Part shown: piece after piece, positions 4,747-17,687 of the stretch | Position numbering within the stretch: position 1 is the stretch's first letter | Layout: each line of letters opens with the position of its first letter | Source: a virus | Length of the DNA stretch: 20,200 bases | Direction: 5' to 3' (one strand) | Virus record (IMG/VR): IMGVR_UViG_3300024490_000059 | Coordinates: 1-20,200 of that record | Program-made: the position numbers and the translations under genes | The notes under the pieces: model-generated | Database searches by the model: none | What the model saw: only the letters and a program-made list of their open reading frames with translations | What the model was told of the DNA's origin: nothing

Positions 4747-6059
4747 GGACGACCCCGTACAGCACGGCTTTGTCGCAGCTTTGCGGCCTGATTGGCGTGC
4801 CGACAAGCCGTCTGACGACGGAACTCGCCTCCAGCCTCAACACGCTGTTTAACGCGAATGTACGGCAGGTTTGGGGCGCTGGTAACTGGCCCGACCTGTC
4901 GATCTGGGGTGAGGCGCGGTTTGCGGGTAACCTGCTGACGTACCCGAACGATGTGGCCCAGACGTCCAACTGGACGGCTACGAATGTTACGGCTACGGCC
5001 AACTCCATCAATAACCCTGCTGATAACCGGGTTACGGCCAGCAAGCTGCTGGAGACGGTCACGAATGGTCAGCACAAGGTAGCCCAGACGGTTACCGGCT
5101 TCCCGAGCACGCAGTACCAGGCGTCCGTGTACGCCCGTCCCAATGGACGTAATTACATCCAGATGGTGGTCAATGACGGTACGACCAGCTTCAGCACGTT
5201 CTTCAACGTGCAGGCTGGCACGATTGGCACGCAGGCCAACGTGACGTCGGCCAACATCCAGCAATGCCCGAACGGGTTCTTCCTCTGCACGATCACGTTT
5301 ACGACCGGCACCGCTTGCACCAGCCTTGCTTACTCCGTGGGCATTTCCACGGATGGCAGCACGGTGTCCTACGCGGGCGACGTCACCAAGGGCGTTTACC
5401 TCTGGGGCAACCTGATGGTGCAGCAGACGAATGTCAGCCCCAACCAGTTCATCGTCCCATACGACCAGACTGGCGAGAAGGTGATTGATGTGTTGTTCCA
5501 AGCGTGGATCGACAATCCCGCGATGGTTACCTACCCCCGTCCCCAAGGCTTTGTGGTGACGACCGAGGGGTTCCAGATGATTTCCACGGCTGGTGGCTTC
5601 ATGGGGACGAATGGCTACGTCTCGTACAACACCAATCCTGCCAACCCGGTCTACCTGTTCTACCGCCGTGCTCCTTACACCTACGCTGGGGACACGTTCA
5701 GCGCCACCGCCACCTACGTTGCCGGTCAGTACGTCTACTACACGCGGACCACGGGGGCGCAGGCGGGTACATCCGATTACTGGAAGTGCTTGAGCGCCAC
5801 CACGGCGGGCCAAGATCCCGAGGACACCCCGTCCAAGTGGGAACTGCAAGAGCTGCCCGAGGCGCTGTCCGGTATCTTGGTCTGGCAGACCTTCGGGGAC
5901 TGGCTGACGCAGGATGGACAGATGGAGAAGGCGGCGTCCGCCTACCAGACCGCAGAACTCAAGAAGCTCAACGAATGGGACCGCATCGAGCGGCAGATGC
6001 CAGATAACTTCCAGCTACAAGTGTTTAATCACGTTACCAGTCAGAATAGGTCTTGGTAA
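4743..6059 (+). CDS. Head-tail adaptor with inserted carbohydrate-binding-like domain (438 aa)
   Basis: The protein appears to be an adaptor (gp4/gp6-like or tail-tube-A-like) split by an extra domain. Residues 1-60 are helical (LCGLIGVPTSRLTTELASSL, NTLFNANVRQVWGAGNWP). Residues 62-243 form a separate beta-rich unit starting NLLTYPNDVAQTSNWTATNV and running through ASKLLETVTNGQHKVAQTV to GVYLWGNLMVQQ. That unit matches the jelly-roll, carbohydrate-binding-module-like domains usual in tail fibres. Residues 245-312 and 370-425 return to adaptor character (VFQAWIDNP-like strand, ALSGILVWQTFGDWLTQDGQ, helix AELKKLNEWDRIERQMP). Residues 325-368 (YVAGQYVYY, then YWKCLSATTAGQDPEDTPSKW) resemble a small chitin-binding-type module. 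The start is TTG overlapping the previous stop. The last 45 bases overlap the antisense HNH gene. Confidence 0.65.
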   Translation: MRTTPYSTALSQLCGLIGVPTSRLTTELASSLNTLFNANVRQVWGAGNWPDLSIWGEARFAGNLLTYPNDVAQTSNWTATNVTATANSINNPADNRVTASKLLETVTNGQHKVAQTVTGFPSTQYQASVYARPNGRNYIQMVVNDGTTSFSTFFNVQAGTIGTQANVTSANIQQCPNGFFLCTITFTTGTACTSLAYSVGISTDGSTVSYAGDVTKGVYLWGNLMVQQTNVSPNQFIVPYDQTGEKVIDVLFQAWIDNPAMVTYPRPQGFVVTTEGFQMISTAGGFMGTNGYVSYNTNPANPVYLFYRRAPYTYAGDTFSATATYVAGQYVYYTRTTGAQAGTSDYWKCLSATTAGQDPEDTPSKWELQELPEALSGILVWQTFGDWLTQDGQMEKAASAYQTAELKKLNEWDRIERQMPDNFQLQVFNHVTSQNRSW

Positions 6060-6584
6060 TTCTGGTTTCCAATGCAAATTATCGCGTATCCGATAGGCGT
6101 GAGTTGCCGTGATGCCAAAGTCTTTGGCTATTGCGGGGCCTCCATGTCCATCGGCAAAACGCTTTTGAATTTCAGCTATTTGCGTGGAGTTCAGTTTGGC
6201 ATGATGAGCGCGTTCGCCTCTTGGCGACACATGCGTTCCAACGCGCCAAGAATGCTTCATGTTATCCGCGTGCGAAACCCACTCCAAGTTGCTGACATGA
6301 TTGTTCAGCTTGTTGGAATCCTTGTGATTAACTTGCGCCAAGTCATTGGGATTTGGCAGAAAGGTCAGCGCAACAAGGCGATGAACCAAAACATTCCAAA
6401 TCGGTTTTTCGCTTTTGGACAAAATAACAGCTGCGTATCCAAATTTGTTGATTCTCCATTTGATAGGTCTTGGGCGTCTTCGTCTCCTGTGTGGCCCAAG
6501 AGACCAAGAGCGAATTTGTCCGCTTTCGGTAATTTCGTACAAGGTTTCGTAGCCCCGAATCGGGGTGTAGGTTTCAGTAGTCAC
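6015..6584 (-). CDS. HNH homing endonuclease with NUMOD4 and HTH domains (189 aa)
   Basis: This is a free-standing homing-type endonuclease on the strand opposite to all neighbours. Residues 6-50 (YTPIRGYETLYEITESGQIR) are a NUMOD4 DNA-binding motif. Residues 67-112 are an HNH_3-type nuclease, with VHRLVALTFLPNP, NHKDSNKLNNHVSNLEWVS and DNMKHS; H68, H87, N99 and E101 fit the active-site pattern. Residues 125-173 look like an IENR1-type helix-turn-helix (LNSTQIAEIQKRFADG, AIAKDFGITATHAYRI). The start is GTG at 6584; an ATG 5 bases upstream is out of frame and stops at once. The stop lies inside the adaptor gene, whose last 15 codons are overlapped. It is more AT-rich than its neighbours, a sign of horizontal transfer. 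On the + strand 6060-6639 has no credible gene; 6585-6639 is a short leader. Confidence 0.9.
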   Translation of the reverse strand: MTTETYTPIRGYETLYEITESGQIRSWSLGPHRRRRRPRPIKWRINKFGYAAVILSKSEKPIWNVLVHRLVALTFLPNPNDLAQVNHKDSNKLNNHVSNLEWVSHADNMKHSWRVGTHVSPRGERAHHAKLNSTQIAEIQKRFADGHGGPAIAKDFGITATHAYRIRDNLHWKPELPRPILTGNVIKHL

Positions 6585-7157: not shown

Positions 7158-8594
7158 ATGGCTGACATTCGCATTAACGCCCTAGCCACGACAGCCGCGA
7201 GCACGGCGTCAGATGATTTCGTAGCCGTTGACGGCAGCGCGAACGGCACGCGCAAGCTGAACGCCTTCAGCCCCACGTTTGGCGGCAACCTCACCGTCAG
7301 CGGGACGGGGACGAGCGCTATCAACAATCTTTCGATCACTCCAACAAGCGGTCATGTTTATTTAACTGGGCCAAGTGCAGCTGGTAAATTCATCACGCTT
7401 CAAAATGGAAATGCTACAGGCGGCATCAATTTTAGAGATAGCGCAGGTAATGAAGTAGGTAGCTACTATCAGGTTACTGATGTGTGGACATTTTCTAAAA
7501 ACACCACCATCTCCGGCAACCTCACCGTCAGCGGAGGGACGATCACGGGCGGGACGAGCGGAATGTCGCTGGCTAGTGGCGGCACCAATCAGAACTTATC
7601 AATTACGCCAAGCGGTACAGGCCGCGTTCACATTGCAAAGTCGGCTGGCCAAGACTCGTACATTGAACTTGCTGGAAATGGTAACACCGCAGGGACAAGC
7701 AGCGTAGTGATCGGGCAAAGCGGCGCTGATCTAGGTGTTCTCTACAACCGAAAAAACGCTGCCCTTTCTTTCGGTACTAACGGTACTGAAGCGGCTCGCT
7801 TCTTCGCCAACGGCAATCTGTTCATCGGTGCATCTCCGGTGGACGGCGGGCAGAAGTTGCAGGTGAACGGGACGGCGGCGATTACTGATCAAACGATTCT
7901 TGGTTCATCTGCTATTTCAGCTAACCAACTTTTGAGCATTAAAAAAGATACAGCCAATTATGGATTGATTGGATTATCAAACTCAAATACAGCGGGTTAC
8001 TCATCCATTGAGCTGTTTGATAATACATCTACACAAACTGGCGCGATTGGATATGGTAATGCTTCGGTTGGAGTTACGGGTGTGCGCGGTAAGGTTTATA
8101 TGTATTCAACTGGTGACATTGCTTTCCTTTCTGGAGGCACCACCACCGCCCTGACGCTCGACTCCTCTCAAAACGCGACGTTTGCGAAGAGTATCACCGC
8201 AAGTGGACCGCTTACGCTATCGTCATCCACACAAGGAAATGCGAATTTCTACGCTATTTCTACATCTGCGAGTGCCAACTTTGGTGCGTTGTACGAAGCT
8301 GATGCAAGAACCCAATCTGCAAATGCGCGTTGGAATTGGGGAACCGGCTCTACAGATGGCGGTGCAGCAGCGGATTCATTCCGTATTCGTGAACGGGTAA
8401 CTGGCGTAAATACATTGGTGATTAGTGCCGTAACTGGCAACGCGACGTTTGCAGGAAGCCTCACAACCTCTGCTCCTACTGGCGGCGCTGGCGCGTGGGA
8501 GCTAGGCGTCTATAGCGCAACCGCTCCGACTGCTACCGGCTACGTCACCATCGAAATCGGCGGCGTTCAATACAAGCTCCTAGCCTCAACCTAA
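7158..8594 (+). CDS. Tail fibre protein, mosaic (478 aa)
   Basis: This is probably a trimeric tail fibre that contacts the host surface. The N-terminus (ADIRINALATTAASTASDDF, VAVDGSANGTRKLNAF) is the common attachment type of phage fibres. The shaft consists of repeated beta units: GGNLTVSG (residues 43 and 119), LSITP followed by a Gly-rich turn (58 and about 146), and NATFA-SxTxS (339 and 428). The end (AWELGVYSATAPTATGYVTI, EIGGVQYKLL) looks like a short beta cap. No intramolecular chaperone (S74 peptidase Ser-Lys) motif was seen. Stretches around 7321-7500, 7900-8140 and 8210-8430 are much more AT-rich than the GC-rich repeat borders, which suggests module exchange. The leader is CGCCCTACTTCC without Shine-Dalgarno. 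Confidence 0.8.
   Translation: MADIRINALATTAASTASDDFVAVDGSANGTRKLNAFSPTFGGNLTVSGTGTSAINNLSITPTSGHVYLTGPSAAGKFITLQNGNATGGINFRDSAGNEVGSYYQVTDVWTFSKNTTISGNLTVSGGTITGGTSGMSLASGGTNQNLSITPSGTGRVHIAKSAGQDSYIELAGNGNTAGTSSVVIGQSGADLGVLYNRKNAALSFGTNGTEAARFFANGNLFIGASPVDGGQKLQVNGTAAITDQTILGSSAISANQLLSIKKDTANYGLIGLSNSNTAGYSSIELFDNTSTQTGAIGYGNASVGVTGVRGKVYMYSTGDIAFLSGGTTTALTLDSSQNATFAKSITASGPLTLSSSTQGNANFYAISTSASANFGALYEADARTQSANARWNWGTGSTDGGAAADSFRIRERVTGVNTLVISAVTGNATFAGSLTTSAPTGGAGAWELGVYSATAPTATGYVTIEIGGVQYKLLAST
7284..7534 (+). repeat. Direct repeat pair in the tail fibre gene
   Basis: The 20-mer GGCAACCTCACCGTCAGCGG occurs at 7284-7303 and again at 7515-7534, both in the same frame and encoding GNLTVSG. 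A second pair, AACGCGACGTTTGC, is at 8172-8185 and 8439-8452 and encodes NATFA. The GC-rich identical borders enclose AT-rich DNA, so they could serve as recombination joints for exchanging fibre modules. Confidence 0.8.
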
Positions 8595-9154: not shown

Positions 9155-11668
9155 ATGAACCGTTACCGCTCATACGGGGAGCTTGATGACCAGCCGAAAA
9201 CGGTTGGGGACGGATCGTTCATCGGCGTGGACGAGTACAACGCCGGGGAGAACATCCAGCCCGGCAACGTCCAGAAGGCCGTAAACCACGACTTCACCTC
9301 GCAGGATGCCAATACGCGGGGTGGGTTCGTCTGCTATCCCGAGCTTGGCACGGTGCCGTTCGGCCAGGCTTGGACGTACAATGCTGTTGGCGCTGTTCCT
9401 AACTTCAGAGACGTAAGCTACGGAGCTGGCGTGTTCGTGGCGGTAGGGCTGGGTGGCGCCATTTACAGTAGTCCAGACGCCGTAACGTGGACGGTACGGA
9501 CGCCACCTAATGGGGCCAACTACACGGACATTGCTTACGCCAATGGACGTTTTGTGGTCGTTGGAGGCACCGTGGTTGGCGTAACGGAGCCCGTCGCTTA
9601 TTCCGATGATGGCATCACTTGGACGCTGCCCGCGACTCCTTTTACCGCCACGCGTACCGGGATTGCCTATGGCGATGGGAAGTGGGTGGCGGTAGGCAGC
9701 CAAGCCGTTTCAATCAGCACGGACAATGGCGTTACTTGGAGCAGCACGACTGGCATTTCCGCGCTAGCCTTGGCCCAAGGTGTTAGCTTTGGAAACGGAA
9801 TCTTCTCCGCTGTTGGAATCAACGGTGTGGTCACATCTCCAGATGGGGTGACGTGGACTTCCGTTTCAATCCCGTCGATTGGCATACCGTTGGACATTGT
9901 TTTCGGTAATCAGAAGTTTGTCGCCCTTGATGCCAACGGGCAGATCTTTACCTCGCCAGATGCGGTGACATGGACCCGCACCCGTTTGTCCGATGGTGAT
10001 ACTTGGCGCACGATAACCTACGGGAATGGCTTTTTCGTAGCGTTTGCCGATTTGACCGGCGGCGACAATGTGATGTATTCCATCGACGCCACCAACTGGA
10101 TTAGGCCGAGTGGCGTACCGAACTACTCCTGGCAGGGAAGCACCTACGGTAACGGCTTATTTGTAGCTGTCGGGGATAGCGGAGCTACGATGTACTCCGA
10201 GAGCGTCTCCACATCCATCTTTGCCTCCGGTATCTACTCGGACCCCAACAACGTCGGGGAAACGTGGATAATGATGTTGGCGTACGACGAGGTTGGCTTC
10301 TTCGCCAACGGTCGTACCAAGAAGACAATCAGCTTGGGAAGCTACACGGTCACTGAACAGTCCACGATTGTTCAAGCCAACAACTACGTCTACATCTTCC
10401 GGGGGCCGGACCAGACCCCGCTGTACTGGGACGGTAACTGGAACGGGACGTTCGCCCTTGTCCCCGATACCAACCTTCCTGACTCATTTGAGTCGATTCC
10501 GAACAGCAACCAAGCCACCTACTACCAGAACCGGCTTTGGGTCGTAAAAGGCAAGGACGGGCTGGCTGCGTCGGACGTGCTGGAGTTCACGGACTACGAC
10601 CCGCTGGCGAACGAGTTTAACCTCAACACGGGTAACTCGGACTACATCGTAGCCACCTACCCCTTCGGCCAGAACAGCCTAGTCGCCTTCAAGAACAAAT
10701 CGATCTTGCTGCTCCAGAACGTGGAGGGCAGCCTGTCCGACGTCACGGTCACCGAGATCACCCGCCAAGTGGGCGTGGTGGGCATTAACGGGGTTACGTC
10801 CATTGGACCAGACTTGGCCTACGTCAGCAACCGGAACATCAACCTGCTGACGCTGACATCCACCAATAACGCCCTCCAGCACAAGATCCTCCCGCTATCC
10901 ACCCGCATCCGTAAGATCATGGATCGGGTCAACTGGGAGGTGGGCTACAAGATCAGCTTGGGCTATTGGAACAACAAGCTGTACGTCGCCCTCCCGCTGG
11001 ACAACAGCTTGGTCTGCAATGCCGTGGTGGTGTACAACTTTACCACGGAGAACTGGTACGGTGAGTGGGCGTTCTCGGACACGCTCAACATGTGCATCCA
11101 AGGCTGGCAGGTAGTGAACTACTTGGGGCTGCAACGGATGCACGCCATCACGGAGGATGGGCGGATCTTCGTCACGGATGAGGGGCAGAACGACATCAGC
11201 GGGACGACGGTAGCCGAGATCAGCACCCAGCTTGTCACCCGTGCCTACGACACGGACAACCTGAACCACTTCCAGCGGCGGATCTACCTGGATGTGGCTA
11301 CCAACCGACCCAAGTTCTCGGCTGCCGCCTTCACGGAAGGGGCGAGCGAGGAGAGCACGCTACTGACGGACCAGACGTACAGTCGGTCAGAGACGTGGAA
11401 ATTTGCGGATTCCGCTTACGATCTGACCAACGCCAATAACGACTACAATCGGGCGTACCGGAAAGATTACTCGACCGGACCCGATAGCGTGCAGCCGGGA
11501 ACCGGCTTTGAGCCCGAGATGGTGCAGGAGTTCCGCCTTCCGCTTATCACCCGCCGTCAGGGCCGGTTGAGCTGGATTGAAGTGACGAACACCCAAGGCT
11601 TTATCAGCGTCATGTCGCTCGGCTACGAGACCCGAGCCGGTCAGCGAGCCAACCTTGTACAAGTCTAA
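9155..11668 (+). CDS. Tail nozzle/stabilisation-like protein with seven propeller-like repeats (837 aa)
   Basis: This large virion protein is best read as the distal tube or nozzle protein of a short tail (P22 gp10/T7 gp12-like role). Residues 1-80 start with a basic segment and GSFIGVDEYNAGENIQPGNV. Residues 84-352 hold seven repeats of about 40 residues of the form YGNGxFVAVG, then a strand, SPDGVTWT and a loop. Residues 370-680 return to the nozzle type: YQNRLWVVKGKDGLAASDVL, EFTDYDPLANEFNLNTGNSD, LVAFKNKSILLLQNVEG, then WNNKLYVALPLDN and VVVYNFTTENWYGEW. The C-terminal 150 residues are beta-rich. The start at 9155 follows GGTGGGG; another ATG at 9150 is out of frame. The assignment to a nozzle role comes from position and these motifs and could be checked by structure prediction. 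Confidence 0.65.
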   Translation: MNRYRSYGELDDQPKTVGDGSFIGVDEYNAGENIQPGNVQKAVNHDFTSQDANTRGGFVCYPELGTVPFGQAWTYNAVGAVPNFRDVSYGAGVFVAVGLGGAIYSSPDAVTWTVRTPPNGANYTDIAYANGRFVVVGGTVVGVTEPVAYSDDGITWTLPATPFTATRTGIAYGDGKWVAVGSQAVSISTDNGVTWSSTTGISALALAQGVSFGNGIFSAVGINGVVTSPDGVTWTSVSIPSIGIPLDIVFGNQKFVALDANGQIFTSPDAVTWTRTRLSDGDTWRTITYGNGFFVAFADLTGGDNVMYSIDATNWIRPSGVPNYSWQGSTYGNGLFVAVGDSGATMYSESVSTSIFASGIYSDPNNVGETWIMMLAYDEVGFFANGRTKKTISLGSYTVTEQSTIVQANNYVYIFRGPDQTPLYWDGNWNGTFALVPDTNLPDSFESIPNSNQATYYQNRLWVVKGKDGLAASDVLEFTDYDPLANEFNLNTGNSDYIVATYPFGQNSLVAFKNKSILLLQNVEGSLSDVTVTEITRQVGVVGINGVTSIGPDLAYVSNRNINLLTLTSTNNALQHKILPLSTRIRKIMDRVNWEVGYKISLGYWNNKLYVALPLDNSLVCNAVVVYNFTTENWYGEWAFSDTLNMCIQGWQVVNYLGLQRMHAITEDGRIFVTDEGQNDISGTTVAEISTQLVTRAYDTDNLNHFQRRIYLDVATNRPKFSAAAFTEGASEESTLLTDQTYSRSETWKFADSAYDLTNANNDYNRAYRKDYSTGPDSVQPGTGFEPEMVQEFRLPLITRRQGRLSWIEVTNTQGFISVMSLGYETRAGQRANLVQV
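9404..10210 (+). repeat. Seven protein repeats (beta-propeller-like) within the nozzle gene
   Basis: Repeats begin at residues 84, 125, 169, 209, 247, 286 and 328 (FRDVSYGAGVFVAVG, DIAYANGRFVVVG, GIAYGDGKWVAVG, GVSFGNGIFSAVG, DIVFGNQKFVALD, TITYGNGFFVAFA, GSTYGNGLFVAVG). The first five also end in SPDAVTWT-type strands; the sixth has SIDATNWI, and the seventh has lost the Trp. Seven units suit a seven-bladed propeller. The DNA copies have diverged, so this is an old duplication. Confidence 0.85.
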
Positions 11669-11682
11669 CGACCTTCACTACC

Positions 11683-12288
11683 ATGCCAACTGTTAGTCCA
11701 GGCTACACTTTCACCGGCACAAACGACCCGATCACCTACACCAAGCTAAACCTGTTGGGTCAGCCGACGGTGGCGGCGGTGGGGCCGAACGACGTTACGA
11801 CCACGACTATCGCTAATCTGGCGGTGACTACGGCAAAGATCGCCGACGATGCTGTGACCACGGCAAAGATTGCCGATGATGCGGTGACGACGGACCAGAT
11901 CGCTTCGGGGAACACCTACGATGCCGCCACGCTGTCGGGCGGCACGACCATCACGCAAGGAACGCCCCTTTACGAGACATACAGCACGGTTAGCTTTGGC
12001 TCTCCGATCAGCCTGACGTTTACGGCTACGGACGGAAACACTCGCCGCATTGCTTGCAGTAGCAGCACGGCGGCTACCATCAACGCCGCTACGGTTCCCC
12101 GTGCTGGATACGCGCTTCAGCTTTCATTCACCACGGATGCCACGGGTGGCAACGTCATCACGTTTGGAACAAACTTTAAGACCACGGGAACGTACACGCT
12201 GACTGGAGCGAGCAAGTACTTCCAAATCACGTTCATCTCTGACGGAAACAATCTCTTGGAGGTCAGCCGTACCGCTGCTGTCGGATAA
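11683..12288 (+). CDS. Small fibre or spike-like protein with 10-residue repeats (201 aa)
   Basis: The 201-residue protein has a short N-terminal part (PTVSPGYTFTGTNDPITYTK), four 10-residue repeats at 37-76 and a beta-rich C-terminal domain (ISLTFTATDGNTRRIACSSS, GYALQLSFTTDATGGNVITF, ASKYFQITFISDGNNLLEVS). The repeat type (AVTTAKIADD) is common in stalks of trimeric phage fibres, followed here by a beta sandwich that could bind a receptor or cap the trimer. It follows the nozzle gene with the leader CGACCTTCACTACC without Shine-Dalgarno. The stop shares a base with the next start (TAATG). The fibre role is inferred from the repeats. Confidence 0.7.
   Translation: MPTVSPGYTFTGTNDPITYTKLNLLGQPTVAAVGPNDVTTTTIANLAVTTAKIADDAVTTAKIADDAVTTDQIASGNTYDAATLSGGTTITQGTPLYETYSTVSFGSPISLTFTATDGNTRRIACSSSTAATINAATVPRAGYALQLSFTTDATGGNVITFGTNFKTTGTYTLTGASKYFQITFISDGNNLLEVSRTAAVG
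11791..11910 (+). repeat. Four 30-bp repeats encoding decapeptides
   Basis: The units DVTTTTIANL, AVTTAKIADD, AVTTAKIADD and AVTTDQIASG follow each other without gaps at residues 37-76 of the 201-aa protein. The two middle units are identical in protein but differ at several third-codon bases, so they are not the result of very recent slippage. Confidence 0.9.
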
Positions 12289-14435
12289 TGGCTATCAAAC
12301 TTCCAGCTTACGGGTTTGAAGACGTAATGGACGATGAGTCCTACGGGACAAACCCCGCTGGAGAAGACATTACTCAAAACGAGATTCAAGAACAAGAGGG
12401 AGAAGCCATGGCTGAACCAACAAAATTCCTAGTCGAAAACGAAGCTATCAGCCAAGGCGGCGGCCTCGGCAGCATGTTCGACTTCAGCTCTGGCGGCAGC
12501 ATCTTCAGCGTCCCAAGCAGCATCCTTGGTGGTTCCGACGTCACGGGTTTTGGTACGCCAACCTTCCTTGGCGGTGCTGGGCCGACGTTTAGCGTTCCGT
12601 TTACTGGGAGCACTCTGGCTGGTGCCGGCTTGGGGCCGGGCGAGATGTCGTTCTTCCAGCCCAGCGGTCAGATCGCACCCGGCAGCACCTACATCGCTCC
12701 GGCTGATTTTGCCGTGGGAGGCGGTAATCCGTTCGCCACATTCGGCACTGCTCCGCTGGAACGGATTGACCTCGGAGAAACTGGTGGTGCCGACATGACC
12801 GGCGTTACCTTGCAAGGCACGCCTTATCGCAATGTCGGGATTGACCAAACTGTTGTTCCTGCGGGAGCAGCCGGTTCCGATGTTTTAACCACGACCGGCG
12901 CCCAAACGCCGACCGTCACGGCTGGCAGTGATGTTGTGACTACGGGGGCTGAAGGCGGTGGCGTTACACGCCTTGATCCATTTGTTGTTTCTGGAACAAA
13001 ACCTCCCGGCGGCACAATAAACTTGAGTGACATTTACACGCCGGGGCCGACCGGCGGTAGTGCATTGCTTGGAGGCGTTAGTACATCTGCCCCCGGTGCT
13101 ACCGTGGTCATGGACCCGTTCCAAGTTACGGGAACACGGGAACCTGCTCAATTCACGCTCAATTTGGCCCCCGGGACCACCCAGCCAACTGCTGGAGGCA
13201 CCGATGCTGGCGTTCAGACGTTGCCGACGATGGTAGTGTCGGAAACCCGCCAGACGACGCCTACGGCTACCCCAGAGCAGATGCGCGACTTGCTGAATCA
13301 AGCGACGCAGGCTTGGGGCCAAACGCTGACACTTCCCCCGGTAACGGTCGGAACTGGTGGCACGGTGACACCGGAACCCGTAACGACGACGATTCCTCCC
13401 GTTACGCCTCCTCCGATAGCTCCGATCATTCCGCCGGCTGTGTCCGTGCCGACGACGACCACCCCAACGCCCACTGTTCCGACGCCGCTGCCGTCAACGC
13501 CTGCACCAACCACGGTGACTGGTGGCACAACGACGCCAACCACCACAACAACCTCTTCCGCCATGACTCAACGTGACATTGCCGCAGAGCTGGCGAAGAC
13601 GATGCCCGCTCTCCAGCAGTACCAAGGCGCCATCCAGAAGATGTATGGCGACCTGTACAGCCAGTTCCTGCCCAAAGGCATTAGCCAGACGGAGCAGGGG
13701 CTGATTAACCAGTACCAGAGCGATCTTGCCCGCTTGCAGCAACGGCAGGCTGGTATGCTGTCCCCCGAGGACGTTCGTCAGGCCCAGCAGTCAGCCCGTG
13801 AGGCTTATGGCGCCCGTGGTCAGGTAATGGGTCCGGGAGCGATTGGAGCCGAGATCCTTAACCGTGAGGCCATCCGCCAGCAACGGGAGGATCAAGCCCG
13901 TGCTGCTCTCCAGCAGAGCTACGGCAACATACTGAACATGTCCAACATCCAGACGGGCAACTTGTTCAGCCCGATTGCCAGCCTAATGGGATCCACGTTC
14001 AACCCGCTCGGTGCCTACCCGGCTGACGTCTACGGAACAAACGTCAACGCCCAGCTTGCCCGCGAGATTGCCCAGAAGAACTACGAAGCTGCGATTGAAT
14101 CTGCTCGTTTGTCTGGTGCAGCTGGTCGTTCGGCTTCCACTACATCCGCAGCGGGTCAGATCGGTGCTGCTGCTCTTCCCTACCTGCTTTCCAGCATCTT
14201 CTGTTGGGTCGCCCGCGAGGTTTACGGCGAAGACAACCCGAAGTGGATGCAGTTCCGCGATTGGATGTTCCGCCATGCGCCCGCTTGGTTCTTCAACTTC
14301 TACCTAGAGAATGGCGAGAAGATCGCTGCTTGGTTAAAGCGCCATCCGTGGGCGAAACGTCCGATCCGCATGTGGATGGACAGCCGTATCCGTTCGATGG
14401 AAAAACGTGAACTGGCACTGAAGGAGGCCGTTTAA
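12288..14435 (+). CDS. Large Gly/Thr/Pro-rich virion protein with TonB-box-like repeats (715 aa)
   Basis: No full-length family was recognised. In order: residues 1-60 acidic; 60-220 Gly/Ser/Thr-rich and low-complexity; 229-238, 275-284, 312-321 and weakly 349-358 repeats of the form LDPFVVSGTK, MDPFQVTGTR, LPTMVVSETR, LPPVTVGTGG; 350-425 Pro/Thr linker; 426-620 helical, Gln/Ala-rich (VRQAQQSAREAYGARGQVMG), with a short MGPGAIGAEI turn; 621-700 hydrophobic-then-aromatic end (ALPYLLSSIFCWVAREVYGE). That C-terminal part is known to me from many phage virion proteins and recalls the CFI-box C-terminal domain. Start ATG overlaps the previous stop; a second ATG at 12408 has a GAGGGAG sequence before it and could be an internal start. 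Position between fibre and ejection genes suggests a tail or internal virion protein acting during host entry. Confidence 0.6.
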   Translation: MAIKLPAYGFEDVMDDESYGTNPAGEDITQNEIQEQEGEAMAEPTKFLVENEAISQGGGLGSMFDFSSGGSIFSVPSSILGGSDVTGFGTPTFLGGAGPTFSVPFTGSTLAGAGLGPGEMSFFQPSGQIAPGSTYIAPADFAVGGGNPFATFGTAPLERIDLGETGGADMTGVTLQGTPYRNVGIDQTVVPAGAAGSDVLTTTGAQTPTVTAGSDVVTTGAEGGGVTRLDPFVVSGTKPPGGTINLSDIYTPGPTGGSALLGGVSTSAPGATVVMDPFQVTGTREPAQFTLNLAPGTTQPTAGGTDAGVQTLPTMVVSETRQTTPTATPEQMRDLLNQATQAWGQTLTLPPVTVGTGGTVTPEPVTTTIPPVTPPPIAPIIPPAVSVPTTTTPTPTVPTPLPSTPAPTTVTGGTTTPTTTTTSSAMTQRDIAAELAKTMPALQQYQGAIQKMYGDLYSQFLPKGISQTEQGLINQYQSDLARLQQRQAGMLSPEDVRQAQQSAREAYGARGQVMGPGAIGAEILNREAIRQQREDQARAALQQSYGNILNMSNIQTGNLFSPIASLMGSTFNPLGAYPADVYGTNVNAQLAREIAQKNYEAAIESARLSGAAGRSASTTSAAGQIGAAALPYLLSSIFCWVAREVYGEDNPKWMQFRDWMFRHAPAWFFNFYLENGEKIAAWLKRHPWAKRPIRMWMDSRIRSMEKRELALKEAV
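12972..13361 (+). repeat. Three to four TonB-box-like peptide repeats
   Basis: The encoded motifs LDPFVVSGTK (12972-13001), MDPFQVTGTR (13110-13139), LPTMVVSETR (13221-13250) and the weaker LPPVTVGTGG (13332-13361) share hydrophobic-x-x-x-x-V-T/S-G/E-T-R/K. The start points are 46, 37 and 37 codons apart. The DNA copies are dissimilar, so the peptide pattern appears conserved while codons have drifted. Confidence 0.6.
14421..14427 (+). promoter_or_regulatory. Strong Shine-Dalgarno for the 546-aa internal protein
   Basis: AAGGAGG lies 9 nt before the ATG at 14437 and within the last codons of the preceding gene. It is the second near-ideal ribosome binding site in the window. Confidence 0.8.
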
Positions 14436-14436
14436 G

Positions 14437-16077
14437 ATGCCCTACGCACCTGGAATCCAAGACATCAGCGGTCAGCTCATAGCGCAGGGCATGTCCCAAG
14501 CCGGGGCAGCCCGTGCGCGGGCGATTGAGAGCCTAGGGGAGAGCATCTCCGGTGGCATCAGGCAGTACCAGCAGAACCAACTATTTACCCAGCAAGCTCT
14601 GGGCAAGTTTGGTCAGGGGCTGATGGATCCCACGTTCCAAAAGTACGTCAATCAAATCGTAAACGACGATCCCAATGCCCCGCAGGTGCCAGATGCGCTG
14701 AAGAAGGCGTTCAAAAACGCGGCGGCCGGCAAGCCCGACATTTACGATGCTGCTTTGCTTGGGACGGCGGCTGAAGGGTATCAACAGAACAAAGCACGGG
14801 TGGCGCAGACCGCTTTGGTTCAAGCGCAAGTCGATGAGATGCGTGCGGAGATGGGCCGTCGGCAAGCTGTTGCACGGATGCTGGGACTTCCTACTGGAGA
14901 GCTTCCGGTTGAGCCCACCGTTTCTGGGCGTCCAGCAATGCCTCCTGCGCCTGCTCTTCCCGCTGGTGCTCCTCCGGTTGCTGCTGAAGCACCAGCAGCG
15001 CCTCAAGAACCTACCCCTGTAGCTCCACCGCGTGCTCCAGCAGAAGCCCCTCCGTCGGTTCAAGCTGCCATTCGCGGTCTTGAAGCCTTCGCCCCTGACA
15101 TTGCTCAACAGGCGCAACGTGAGGCTGCGTTGAAGTTCCTGTCCTCTGGGCAATACTCCGATCCTACGCTGATTGCTCAACGCCTAGTAGCGGAAAAACG
15201 GAAGCAATCGGCTGAAGAGCGTCAGATGACGCTTGATGAAGCAAAGCAGCAACAAGAGGCGTTTAATGAAAGCCAGAAGGGTCTTCCGCCAGGACAGCGA
15301 CGAGCCGCTACTGTCAAGGAGTCGGGAACTAGTGGTTATTATGTCCTAAACATCGGCATTGCCGAGCTAACTCCTCTGGAAAAAAAGCAACTTGAAGCGG
15401 AAACAAAGCAAGAGGAGTTTCGACTCGCTCGCATTAATGATCGCATAAAGGCAGACATAGCAACCGCTCAAGCCGACCGTTTGATTGCTCCAGCAGTAGC
15501 CAACCTTGAGCGTATCATTAGGGAAGGAAGCCTTGATGAAGGCGCTTTTGCTACCGTAAAAGCCAACATCATGAATTTCGGGAAAGCACTAAACTTCCCG
15601 ATTGATGAACGAAAGCTGTCAGACACCCAGCAGGCTTTGGCTTACTTCGGCCAGATCGTTCTTCCCACGTTTGCCGCCACCAAGGGAAGCATTTCCGATA
15701 AGGAAACGGAGTTGTTTAGGTCTTGGAATCCGCAACTTGGTTTAAGCAACAAGGCTAATCTTGAGCTTCTTGGTGTGCTTCAAAAACGCATCAATTTGAA
15801 CCGAGAGATGGAGTCGTTGGCTAACAAGGTTGATGCTCAAGAGATCAGCGAGAAGGATTACATGAACCGTCGTAACAAGCTGATTAAGGCCTACGACGAT
15901 TCGATCCCGTCCGCCAACGAACTGCGGGAACGCTCTGGCGTGCGCGATCAGCCAATCGCTGAAGGTCTTGGAGTTGGGACCAGCGGTGAACCCGCTGCCA
16001 CCACGCAGCCCGTGACCAATGCCAGCTCAATGTTCAATACGCTTCTGCAAAAGGCCAAGAAAGGGCAGACACAATGA
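14437..16077 (+). CDS. Putative internal virion/ejection protein (546 aa)
   Basis: This is probably an ejected internal protein. The sequence is almost fully helical and rich in Ala, Gln and Glu. Residues 1-135 (GQLIAQGMSQAGAARARAIE, SLGESISGGIRQYQQNQLFT) are amphipathic helices; residues 165-210 form a Pro/Ala linker (PAMPPAPALPAGAPPVAAEA); residues 215-500 are long helices, including LEKKQLEAETKQEEFRLARI and LSDTQQALAYFGQIVLPTFA. It has no Cys, signal peptide or clear transglycosylase Glu motif. The order (after the tail proteins, before the lysis genes) and a linker-split helical build fit podovirus ejection proteins, but no specific homologue was identified. The start has a strong AAGGAGG; the stop overlaps the next start as ATGA. 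Confidence 0.6.
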   Translation: MPYAPGIQDISGQLIAQGMSQAGAARARAIESLGESISGGIRQYQQNQLFTQQALGKFGQGLMDPTFQKYVNQIVNDDPNAPQVPDALKKAFKNAAAGKPDIYDAALLGTAAEGYQQNKARVAQTALVQAQVDEMRAEMGRRQAVARMLGLPTGELPVEPTVSGRPAMPPAPALPAGAPPVAAEAPAAPQEPTPVAPPRAPAEAPPSVQAAIRGLEAFAPDIAQQAQREAALKFLSSGQYSDPTLIAQRLVAEKRKQSAEERQMTLDEAKQQQEAFNESQKGLPPGQRRAATVKESGTSGYYVLNIGIAELTPLEKKQLEAETKQEEFRLARINDRIKADIATAQADRLIAPAVANLERIIREGSLDEGAFATVKANIMNFGKALNFPIDERKLSDTQQALAYFGQIVLPTFAATKGSISDKETELFRSWNPQLGLSNKANLELLGVLQKRINLNREMESLANKVDAQEISEKDYMNRRNKLIKAYDDSIPSANELRERSGVRDQPIAEGLGVGTSGEPAATTQPVTNASSMFNTLLQKAKKGQTQ

Positions 16078-17687
16078 ACCCAATGGAAGACGACATTGAG
16101 AGTAAGGCGTTGGAATTGGCAAAGGCTGGCGTTGCTCAAAGCGACATCGAAGCGTGGATTGATGTTGCTCGCAAAGAGCGGGACTCGTCGGCGCCAAAAG
16201 TTGCTGCTCAATCCGGGCCTTCTACTTCCGATCAACTAAAGGCCGATGTGGGATACCTAGGCAAGACGGGTGGAGAGATGGCCGCCCGAGGAGCTGCTAT
16301 TGCCGCTGGTCAAGGGGCGGGCCTTCGTCTTCCTGGTGCAATGAAGGCTATTGGCGTTCCGGCTGGCGGAGCGATTTCGGCTGCAATGACCGATGTTGCC
16401 TTGCAGCGCATGAGCGGAAAGCCCTACAGCTTGGGTCAGACTATTGAGGAGGCTGCTATTGGAACGCTTCCGGGCATATCCGCGACCCCAGCAGGAATGG
16501 CTACGGCCAGAAGCGCCATTCAAGCTGCTCCCAAGGTTTTGGAGTACTTTGCCTCACCCCAAGGCTTTCGCACTTTGGGGACGTTGATGGCTGGAAAAAC
16601 AGCCAAAACGATGACCGAGGAAGGTCGTGTTCCCACCATGGGAGAAGCGGCTTTGGTTGTAGGAGGTGCAGCCGTTGCTGGAAAGACCTCGGTAGTTCCG
16701 CCAACTAAAGGCCAGATCGAACAAGCCAAACGGGCTGTTGATGATGCGGTCACGAATACTAACGTAAAGGAATGGCTGTCCAAGGGAGGGAAAATTGACC
16801 CGACTTTGAGTTACCGCGATTCAGCGGTTAATCGGGGCGTCTCTACTGTGGCCGGACCTAGTTCCGTTCAGCGTGAGGCTAATGCCGAGAACGCACGGGT
16901 CGTTAATCGCCTTGCCCGCGAGGAGATGGGATTCCCCGAGACACAATCGTTGGCACCCATCAACTTCACGGATCTGATCGTGAAGAAGTCCCAGTCGCTG
17001 CGTGATGTGGAATCGCTCGGTAGCAACTTCAAGGACCAAGTGAATGTTGTTCGCATGGCCCGCGAGGAGTCCAGCAACGCTTGGAAGGGCTACACAGCAT
17101 CGGCTGCCAAAGGCAAACCCGACACCGCCGCCCGTGAGGAGGCTAAACAACTCACCGCAAAGGCTGTTCAAGAAGAGGGCAATCTTGAGCAGATGCTTTT
17201 GAAGGCCGGTGAAAAAGACCTACTGTCCCAGTGGAAGTCAGACCGTAAGATTCTGGCCAAGATTTACGGCTACCGCGATGCGCTGATTGAGGGAAACATT
17301 TCCCCTGGCATCATCTCCGACCAGAAGTCCATCCAGCGTCGTTACGTTGACGGCAACTTTGACCTAATTGCCCGATTCCACGATACGATGCCTAAAGTTA
17401 TGCGGGACATCACCGACGTCCAAGTCGTTGAGCAAAACATCCCGCAAATGCTGCAACGTGGAGCGGCAGCTACCGCAGCCATAACCGGCGCTGCTCAACT
17501 CGGCGCCAGTCCATTGGCGACCGCTGGAATTGGTATGCTCGGCGCAGCCTCACCGGAAATCGCCCGCAAGATTGCCATGAATCCCTTCTATCAGCGGGCG
17601 ATGGCGGCTCCTCGCTACGGTGCTGAAGATCCAGCCTTTGCGTCCTCGTTGGCCCGTTTTGCGGGTATCCGCGCAGCTTCCCAATAA
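16074..17687 (+). CDS. Putative internal virion/ejection protein with Ala/Gly-rich hydrophobic segments (537 aa)
   Basis: The protein starts with a short helical pair (DDIESKALELAKAGVAQSDI, EAWIDVARKERDS) that recalls motifs at the N-termini of phage internal proteins. Hydrophobic, Ala/Gly-rich segments follow at about 70-110 (EMAARGAAIAAGQGAGLRLP, GAMKAIGVPAGGAISAAMTD), 130-145 and 185-205 (MGEAALVVGGAAVAGKTSVV), then a charged helical part at 210-460, and a last hydrophobic stretch at 465-500 (GAAATAAITGAAQLGASPLA). Such segments might insert in the host membrane to form a DNA passage. There is no recognised enzyme motif. It overlaps the 546-aa gene by ATGA, so the two are likely made together and probably work together in DNA ejection. 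Confidence 0.55.
   Translation: MNPMEDDIESKALELAKAGVAQSDIEAWIDVARKERDSSAPKVAAQSGPSTSDQLKADVGYLGKTGGEMAARGAAIAAGQGAGLRLPGAMKAIGVPAGGAISAAMTDVALQRMSGKPYSLGQTIEEAAIGTLPGISATPAGMATARSAIQAAPKVLEYFASPQGFRTLGTLMAGKTAKTMTEEGRVPTMGEAALVVGGAAVAGKTSVVPPTKGQIEQAKRAVDDAVTNTNVKEWLSKGGKIDPTLSYRDSAVNRGVSTVAGPSSVQREANAENARVVNRLAREEMGFPETQSLAPINFTDLIVKKSQSLRDVESLGSNFKDQVNVVRMAREESSNAWKGYTASAAKGKPDTAAREEAKQLTAKAVQEEGNLEQMLLKAGEKDLLSQWKSDRKILAKIYGYRDALIEGNISPGIISDQKSIQRRYVDGNFDLIARFHDTMPKVMRDITDVQVVEQNIPQMLQRGAAATAAITGAAQLGASPLATAGIGMLGAASPEIARKIAMNPFYQRAMAAPRYGAEDPAFASSLARFAGIRAASQ

Follow-up and report, generated by a model that had tools for sequence, protein, structure and literature searches.

TonB-box-like motifs in a phage structural-cluster protein suggest borrowing of the host TonB motor for entry

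The locus and the domains of P0001

The DNA analyzed here, a 20.2-kb virus record of a tailed phage that is called the window throughout, codes for an SU10-type major capsid protein and a portal-like fragment. On its + strand lies the gene (9155 to 11668) for an 837-aa protein of the tail nozzle or head-closure type, which has 34 relatives and whose homologue in phage C75C1 is annotated as head closure. A gene for a 201-aa fibre-like protein with PHROG tail-fibre matches follows (11683 to 12288, + strand), and then comes the open reading frame of P0001 (12288 to 14435, + strand), the 715-aa protein that bears the motif array and that was delineated from its translation and its orthologues. Alignment with the start of the orthologue in contig L011 suggests that translation may begin at the ATG at 12408 (MAEPTKF). 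The next two large genes, for proteins of 546 aa (14437 to 16077, + strand; no convincing family match) and 537 aa (16074 to 17687, + strand; no family match), are presumed from their position to belong to an ejection cluster. An identical P0001 is present in a 36.6-kb contig of the same species as the window.

The gene for P0001 thus has nozzle/fibre genes on one side and two large genes on the other, and this arrangement in the window and its relatives is the gene order of podovirus ejection proteins. The ejection genes of T7 likewise follow the nozzle gene and precede two further large ones. We infer from gene position and homology that P0001 is a virion protein, and from position that it is ejected. 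It can be regarded as a functional analogue of the T7-type ejection proteins (gp14/gp15/gp16), with which it shares gene position and a helical domain. It differs from them in an added 430-aa arm that is predicted to be disordered and in the absence of detectable sequence homology, and searches of PHROG and of solved structures revealed no homology to any characterised ejection protein.

No family in Pfam or PHROG matched P0001, and a profile search of solved structures with this protein returned weak chance or Hint/intein matches only. Its N-terminal arm (aa 1–430; 12288 to 13577, + strand) is of low complexity, and AlphaFold2 modelled these residues without secondary structure except for short helices (pLDDT mostly under 36, with a mean of 36 for the model and about 30 for the arm). 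The earlier sequence-only reading would have been contradicted by a fold that buries the motifs. No such fold appeared, but a model of this low confidence is too poor to place the protein and merely fails to refute a flexible arm. The arm is followed by a conserved helical domain (aa 431–624; 13578 to 14159, + strand), recognized from the model helices and an invariant REAYxARGQ..GAEI..R block. P0001 was rejected as a TonB-dependent receptor because it has no plug or beta-barrel domain (Pfam), and no TonB homologue was found in the window.

The protein ends in a module with the signature FCWVAREVYG...WMQFRDWM (aa 638–715; 14199 to 14432, + strand), which is found in 279 viral stretches, fused to varied N-terminal parts. 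Among phage isolates, likeness to P0001 is limited to the corresponding C-terminal module of HMO-2011. In the orthologues of L308, L310, L312, L313, L333, L336 and L337, a Hint-like (intein/hedgehog-type) domain replaces this module (sub-threshold Pfam matches), and the orthologue at L339:4285-6873 has an additional internal PT-HINT/intein-like insertion downstream of its box array.

The window and sister contig L009, which seemingly represent one species, do not differ in P0001 or in the two genes downstream of it. An HNH homing-endonuclease gene of the window (HNH_3, NUMOD4; 6015 to 6584, − strand) is flanked by two structural genes and looks like a recent insertion, because only about 12 bases occupy this site in L009. 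At 7158 to 8594 the window has a 478-aa fibre-like gene, whereas L009 has different genes (697 and 145 aa), which likely reflects swapping of a surface-exposed region.

Four motifs and the TonB boxes of Opitutales

The arm of P0001 contains four motifs within a Gly/Thr/Pro-rich stretch, all encoded on the + strand: LDPFVVSGTK (motif 1, aa 229–238; 12972 to 13001), MDPFQVTGTR (motif 2, aa 275–284; 13110 to 13139), LPTMVVSETR (motif 3, aa 312–321; 13221 to 13250) and LPPVTVGTGG (motif 4, aa 349–358; 13332 to 13361). Translation confirms these peptides, with spacings of 46, 37 and 37 residues, as they had been reported in the sequence-only reading, which likened them to TonB boxes.

A scan of 84,980 genomes for DNA coding for DPFxVTGT produced 56 matches. 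Three of these sites are at the start of a TonB-dependent receptor just past the signal peptide, and all three are from the class Opitutia (APFALDPFTVTGTQ, PLQLDPFEVTGTR and PYTLDPFTVTGTQ); the receptors were recognised by eye from their plug sequence. The doubled motif was not found in a second phage species among viral contigs. Segments upstream of plug domains were then gathered from Opitutales and from other groups, and the box was located by an unsupervised sampler. The resulting Opitutales profile has 12 columns and is derived from 52 boxes, which are those accepted as clear among 66 sampled segments. It reads [VE]-[ED]-L-[DE]-[PA]-[F/Y]-x-[VI]-T-[GA]-[ST]-R. Position 6 is F or Y in 33 of the 52 boxes, whereas V, I or L usually stands there in the other groups (..DEVVVTGS).

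Motifs 1 and 2 match this profile at the level of true boxes, scoring 19.5 and 17.5 bits when true Opitutales boxes scored by leave-one-out have a median of 17.6 bits (lower quartile 11.5, tenth percentile 7.4). Shuffles of residues 1–430 gave a mean maximum of 3.0 bits (sd 2.9), and none of 3000 reached the top score. Two sites at the second score also arose in 0 of 3000 shuffles, and three at the third score in 1 of 3000. The proposed likeness to TonB boxes is therefore upheld, strongly for the first two of the four motifs. The third is weaker (8.4 bits), and the fourth is marginal (2.9 bits) and not significant alone.

Relatives were collected by means of the nozzle gene, blind to the motif, which yielded 34 phage contigs. 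The gene after the fibre gene in these relatives codes for an arm so diverged that it often cannot be aligned, but boxes are present, including VVLPPFEVPGTK, VNLPQVEVTGTK, GMMSPFVVTGDR, VVLPPFTVSSRE, TNLDPFIVAENK and TTLPTMTVTGSR. Eleven of 18 loci have top-three profile scores that exceed shuffles at P<=0.01. Besides the window species and L011, these comprise nine loci whose discovery owed nothing to the motif. The core [LM]xP[FYMVI]x[VA] occurs at 40 sites in 13 orthologues, when 1.4 are expected from composition and 2.0 from dipeptide-preserving shuffles. Of these orthologues, 11 were chosen blind to the motif; two of the 13, L308 and L314, score more weakly by the profile alone (P=0.019 and 0.18). 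Among permutations of the spacing within the core, the next best count is 36 and the median is 0, and the permutation that gives 36 is likely to pick up the LPP sites of the core again in a shifted register.

Individual motifs can also be followed between species. MDPFQVT of motif 2 is kept in L011 and L339, the counterparts of motif 3 are LPAVAVTGTR in L011 (10.3 bits) and LPTMTVTGSR in L339 (14.4 bits), and LPPVT or LPPVI of motif 4 is kept in orthologues. The sequence-only reading had called for motifs that stay conserved while their linkers vary, and the count of 40 core sites bears this out. Between P0001 and L339, boxes are 64% identical and linkers 33% (P=0.004), but between P0001 and L011 the values are 56% and 47% (P=0.18), so box conservation there is not above that of the linkers. 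The motif is not essential to the nozzle family, because by the top-three profile scores significant boxes are absent at the family loci L311, L314, L318, L319, L324 and L327, which apart from L314 are more distantly related. Nor is it linked to the FCWVAREVYG module, since 80 loci found via this module have no repeated boxes besides those of the window species and L011. The motif itself is almost certainly real and conserved.

A reciprocal profile was made from 36 distinct phage copies only, collected with a regular expression inspired by the reported motif, while the receptor boxes had been located independently of phage data. For 41 of the 52 Opitutales receptor N-termini, the best window of this phage-only profile coincides exactly with the TonB box (0.65 expected by chance), and column-permuted phage profiles achieve a mean of 1.05 and a maximum of 18 in 100 permutations. 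In other taxa the box is the best window in 27 of 44 cases, with a median score of 1.7 versus 4.9 in Opitutales. Because of this reciprocal test, we consider the phage motif to be a TonB box in sequence, nearest to the Opitutales dialect. A small phage protein in L094 and L100 also starts with a single Opitutales-type box (MTAAINPTIEVDPFTVTGTN).

Box arrays in other phages and the likely host

The proteobacterial-type peptide VVVTGTR shows no excess in raw counts from viral contigs (73 stretches, versus 107 for the reversed peptide), and given this result only open reading frames with multiple boxes were taken as evidence. Two or more boxes are present in 5 of 49 frames with VVVTGTR (one of them dubious) versus 0 of 41 with the reversed peptide. 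Among these multi-box frames is one in L389/L400, where a 779-aa protein encoded after a virion structural gene in the nozzle position has four boxes of the proteobacterial type (15.4, 24.7, 21.0 and 20.3 bits). They also include the T4-type contig L410, in which three boxes stand at the C-terminus of a tail-tube protein and a baseplate tube-cap protein encoded nearby has three at its N-terminus. A tail-tube protein of other T4-type contigs, as in L385, begins MTTALTQLPTVVVTGTR. These tail-tube and tube-cap proteins with terminal VTVTGTR or VVVTGTR are encoded at L410:371-1561 (− strand), L410:2566-3267 and L385:1144-1734 (− strand).

Among isolates, GP066c of Caulobacter phage RW, encoded at a position comparable to that of P0001, contains VDEIVVTPSQ (20.0 bits) and VDPVVVNPPQ plus weaker copies. 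Its top-three score has a z of 4.6 with the non-Opitutales (mostly proteobacterial) profile and of −0.6 with the Opitutales profile. Phages RW, KcrB, RLK and GB2A are identical at this protein and were counted as one case. As in P0001, the array is located in a Pro/Thr/Gly-rich arm and in a structural cluster, here one with an endolysin-bearing virion protein. GP066c is nevertheless a different protein, with proteobacterial-type boxes and a tape-measure-like C-terminal module. No significant boxes were detected in the Pelagibacter phage Mosig and phage DSL-LC04 relatives.

The related phage C75C1 (OQ984151; host not recorded) has seven F-type sites of at least 9 bits, versus 0.31 in shuffles. 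They are in a giant protein of about 2,770 residues that occupies the same gene position as P0001 but is a wholly different protein. Giant structural-cluster proteins with at least seven L-P-x-F-x-V-like sites between other stretches were observed in C75C1, L374:1-7576 and L003.

The conserved half of the nozzle protein offers an indication of the host of the window phage. Distant relatives of this half were found in 7 of 373 genomes of the order Opitutales, versus 0 of 299 from Pseudomonadota and 0 of 296 from Bacteroidota. An initial genome search had mostly returned generic repeat matches at model positions 70 to 380 and was redone with the conserved C-terminal half. One of the Opitutales relatives is inside a 3.75-Mb contig, in a prophage-like stretch with similar gene order; for those on other Opitutales contigs, binning errors are possible. 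All are distant and are without boxes. TonB C-terminal domains were identified in 9 of 10 genomes of the order that were checked. These sequence data suggest that the host is an uncultured member of Opitutales. As far as hosts are known, which is the case for two groups, box dialect appears to follow the host among these phage groups.

A proposed role for the boxes in entry

These findings may bear on how podoviruses pass proteins and DNA over the outer membrane and periplasm, and on what powers the first steps. We propose that the arm, predicted to be disordered, is injected and that its host-type TonB boxes enlist the Ton motor as the phage enters. This reading draws on gene position and on the precedents of colicin B and phage T1, and we give it a probability of roughly 0.6. 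P0001 would travel in the particle and be ejected at an early stage; its helical and C-terminal portions would be inserted in the envelope or reach across it, with the flexible arm dangling in the periplasm. There, one or several boxes would probably pair with the TonB C-terminal domain by strand addition. TonB-ExbB-ExbD would in this way anchor or pull the ejection proteins, plus DNA, across the outer membrane, as for group B colicins, and several boxes might provide avidity or stepwise pulling.

For passage through FepA, colicin B depends on a TonB box of its own, and it can take single-stranded DNA with it (PMC8546555). P0001 resembles group B colicins and S-type pyocins as a foreign protein with one or more TonB boxes in an arm, here predicted to be disordered, through which it would engage the Ton motor for outer-membrane passage (PMC8546555). 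It differs in having a box array, in belonging to a virion gene cluster and in not being a toxin. Pfam and PHROG searches revealed no receptor-binding or killing domain in P0001, which would be colicin-like at most in the import step. With TonB-dependent transporters such as FhuA, FepA, BtuB and the Opitutales receptors, the likeness is in sequence, including the taxon-specific form L-[DE]-[PA]-[F/Y]-x-[VI]-T-[GA]-[ST]-R, and in placement within a segment that in P0001 is predicted to be flexible. The difference is that P0001 has several copies and is a phage protein without plug or barrel. In the known TonB-dependent phages, T1 and phi80, TonB is understood to act via the own box of the receptor FhuA. 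Infection by these phages needs TonB and proton-motive force, which for T1 are required for irreversible adsorption (PMC11658791), and a similar need is proposed for the window phage from sequence. On the proposed reading, the window phage would exploit the Ton motor by mimicking TonB boxes. In a search of open papers, no description of TonB boxes in the virion proteins of phages came up.

The main rival explanation is that LxP[F/V]xV ties the disordered arm to a partner within the virion, such as the portal, the nozzle or another ejection protein, and that the resemblance to TonB boxes reflects a shared chemistry of strand addition. Repetition of the motif in an internal-type virion protein would suit such docking, as would the like L-P-x-F-x-V motif of C75C1, whose giant protein at this gene position is entirely unlike P0001. 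Some orthologue copies (LPPVTVNEPP, LPPFKVNENT) are also less TonB-like than those of the window. Docking leaves unexplained, however, why the window phage uses the F/Y form common to Opitutales boxes when RW and L389 use the V/I form, why arrays recur in unrelated phages, T4-type tube proteins included, and why the reciprocal match rate is 41 of 52. Distant relatives, moreover, retain the helical domain without the motif. We favour TonB over a virion-internal partner mainly because the dialect tracks the evidence on the host, and we regard docking as unlikely.

Less probable still is a role in which boxes that reach the periplasm, or that are produced late in infection, sequester TonB and shut receptors, causing superinfection exclusion or starvation and not serving entry. 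Many boxes per molecule would fit a competitor, and among phage lipoproteins Llp of T5 is known to block a TonB-dependent transporter (PMC9586334). This role sits poorly with a gene within the structural cluster and with a protein in which no signal peptide is apparent by eye at either candidate start. Chance origin of hydrophobic-Thr-Gly strings in a low-complexity protein, a caveat of the sequence-only reading, is suggested by the Thr/Pro/Gly/Val-rich composition of the region and by the chance-level score of motif 4 alone, but is rejected as very improbable given the composition- and dipeptide-preserving shuffles, the permuted-spacing and reversed-motif controls and the motif-blind orthologues.

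If the arm does recruit the Ton motor, entry would have in it a direct source of power, or an anchor, that can be put to the test, and phage ejection would be tied to colicin import. A host signal would also be readable from sequence, because box dialect differs between bacterial groups. A broader generalization is more tentative and has somewhat less than even odds in our estimation: host-type TonB-box arrays on ejected or tube-tip virion proteins might be a widespread device of the tailed phages of diderm bacteria, powering or anchoring genome entry via TonB-ExbB-ExbD, with a dialect that reports host lineage. Caulobacter phage RW, an isolate on a genetically tractable bacterium, has an array, so the idea is testable now. 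Opitutales genomes G003, G004, G005, G026, G056, G068 and G077 each have 6 to 32 matches to TonB-like C-terminal domains, and with so many per genome it is possible that boxes are specific for one among several TonBs.
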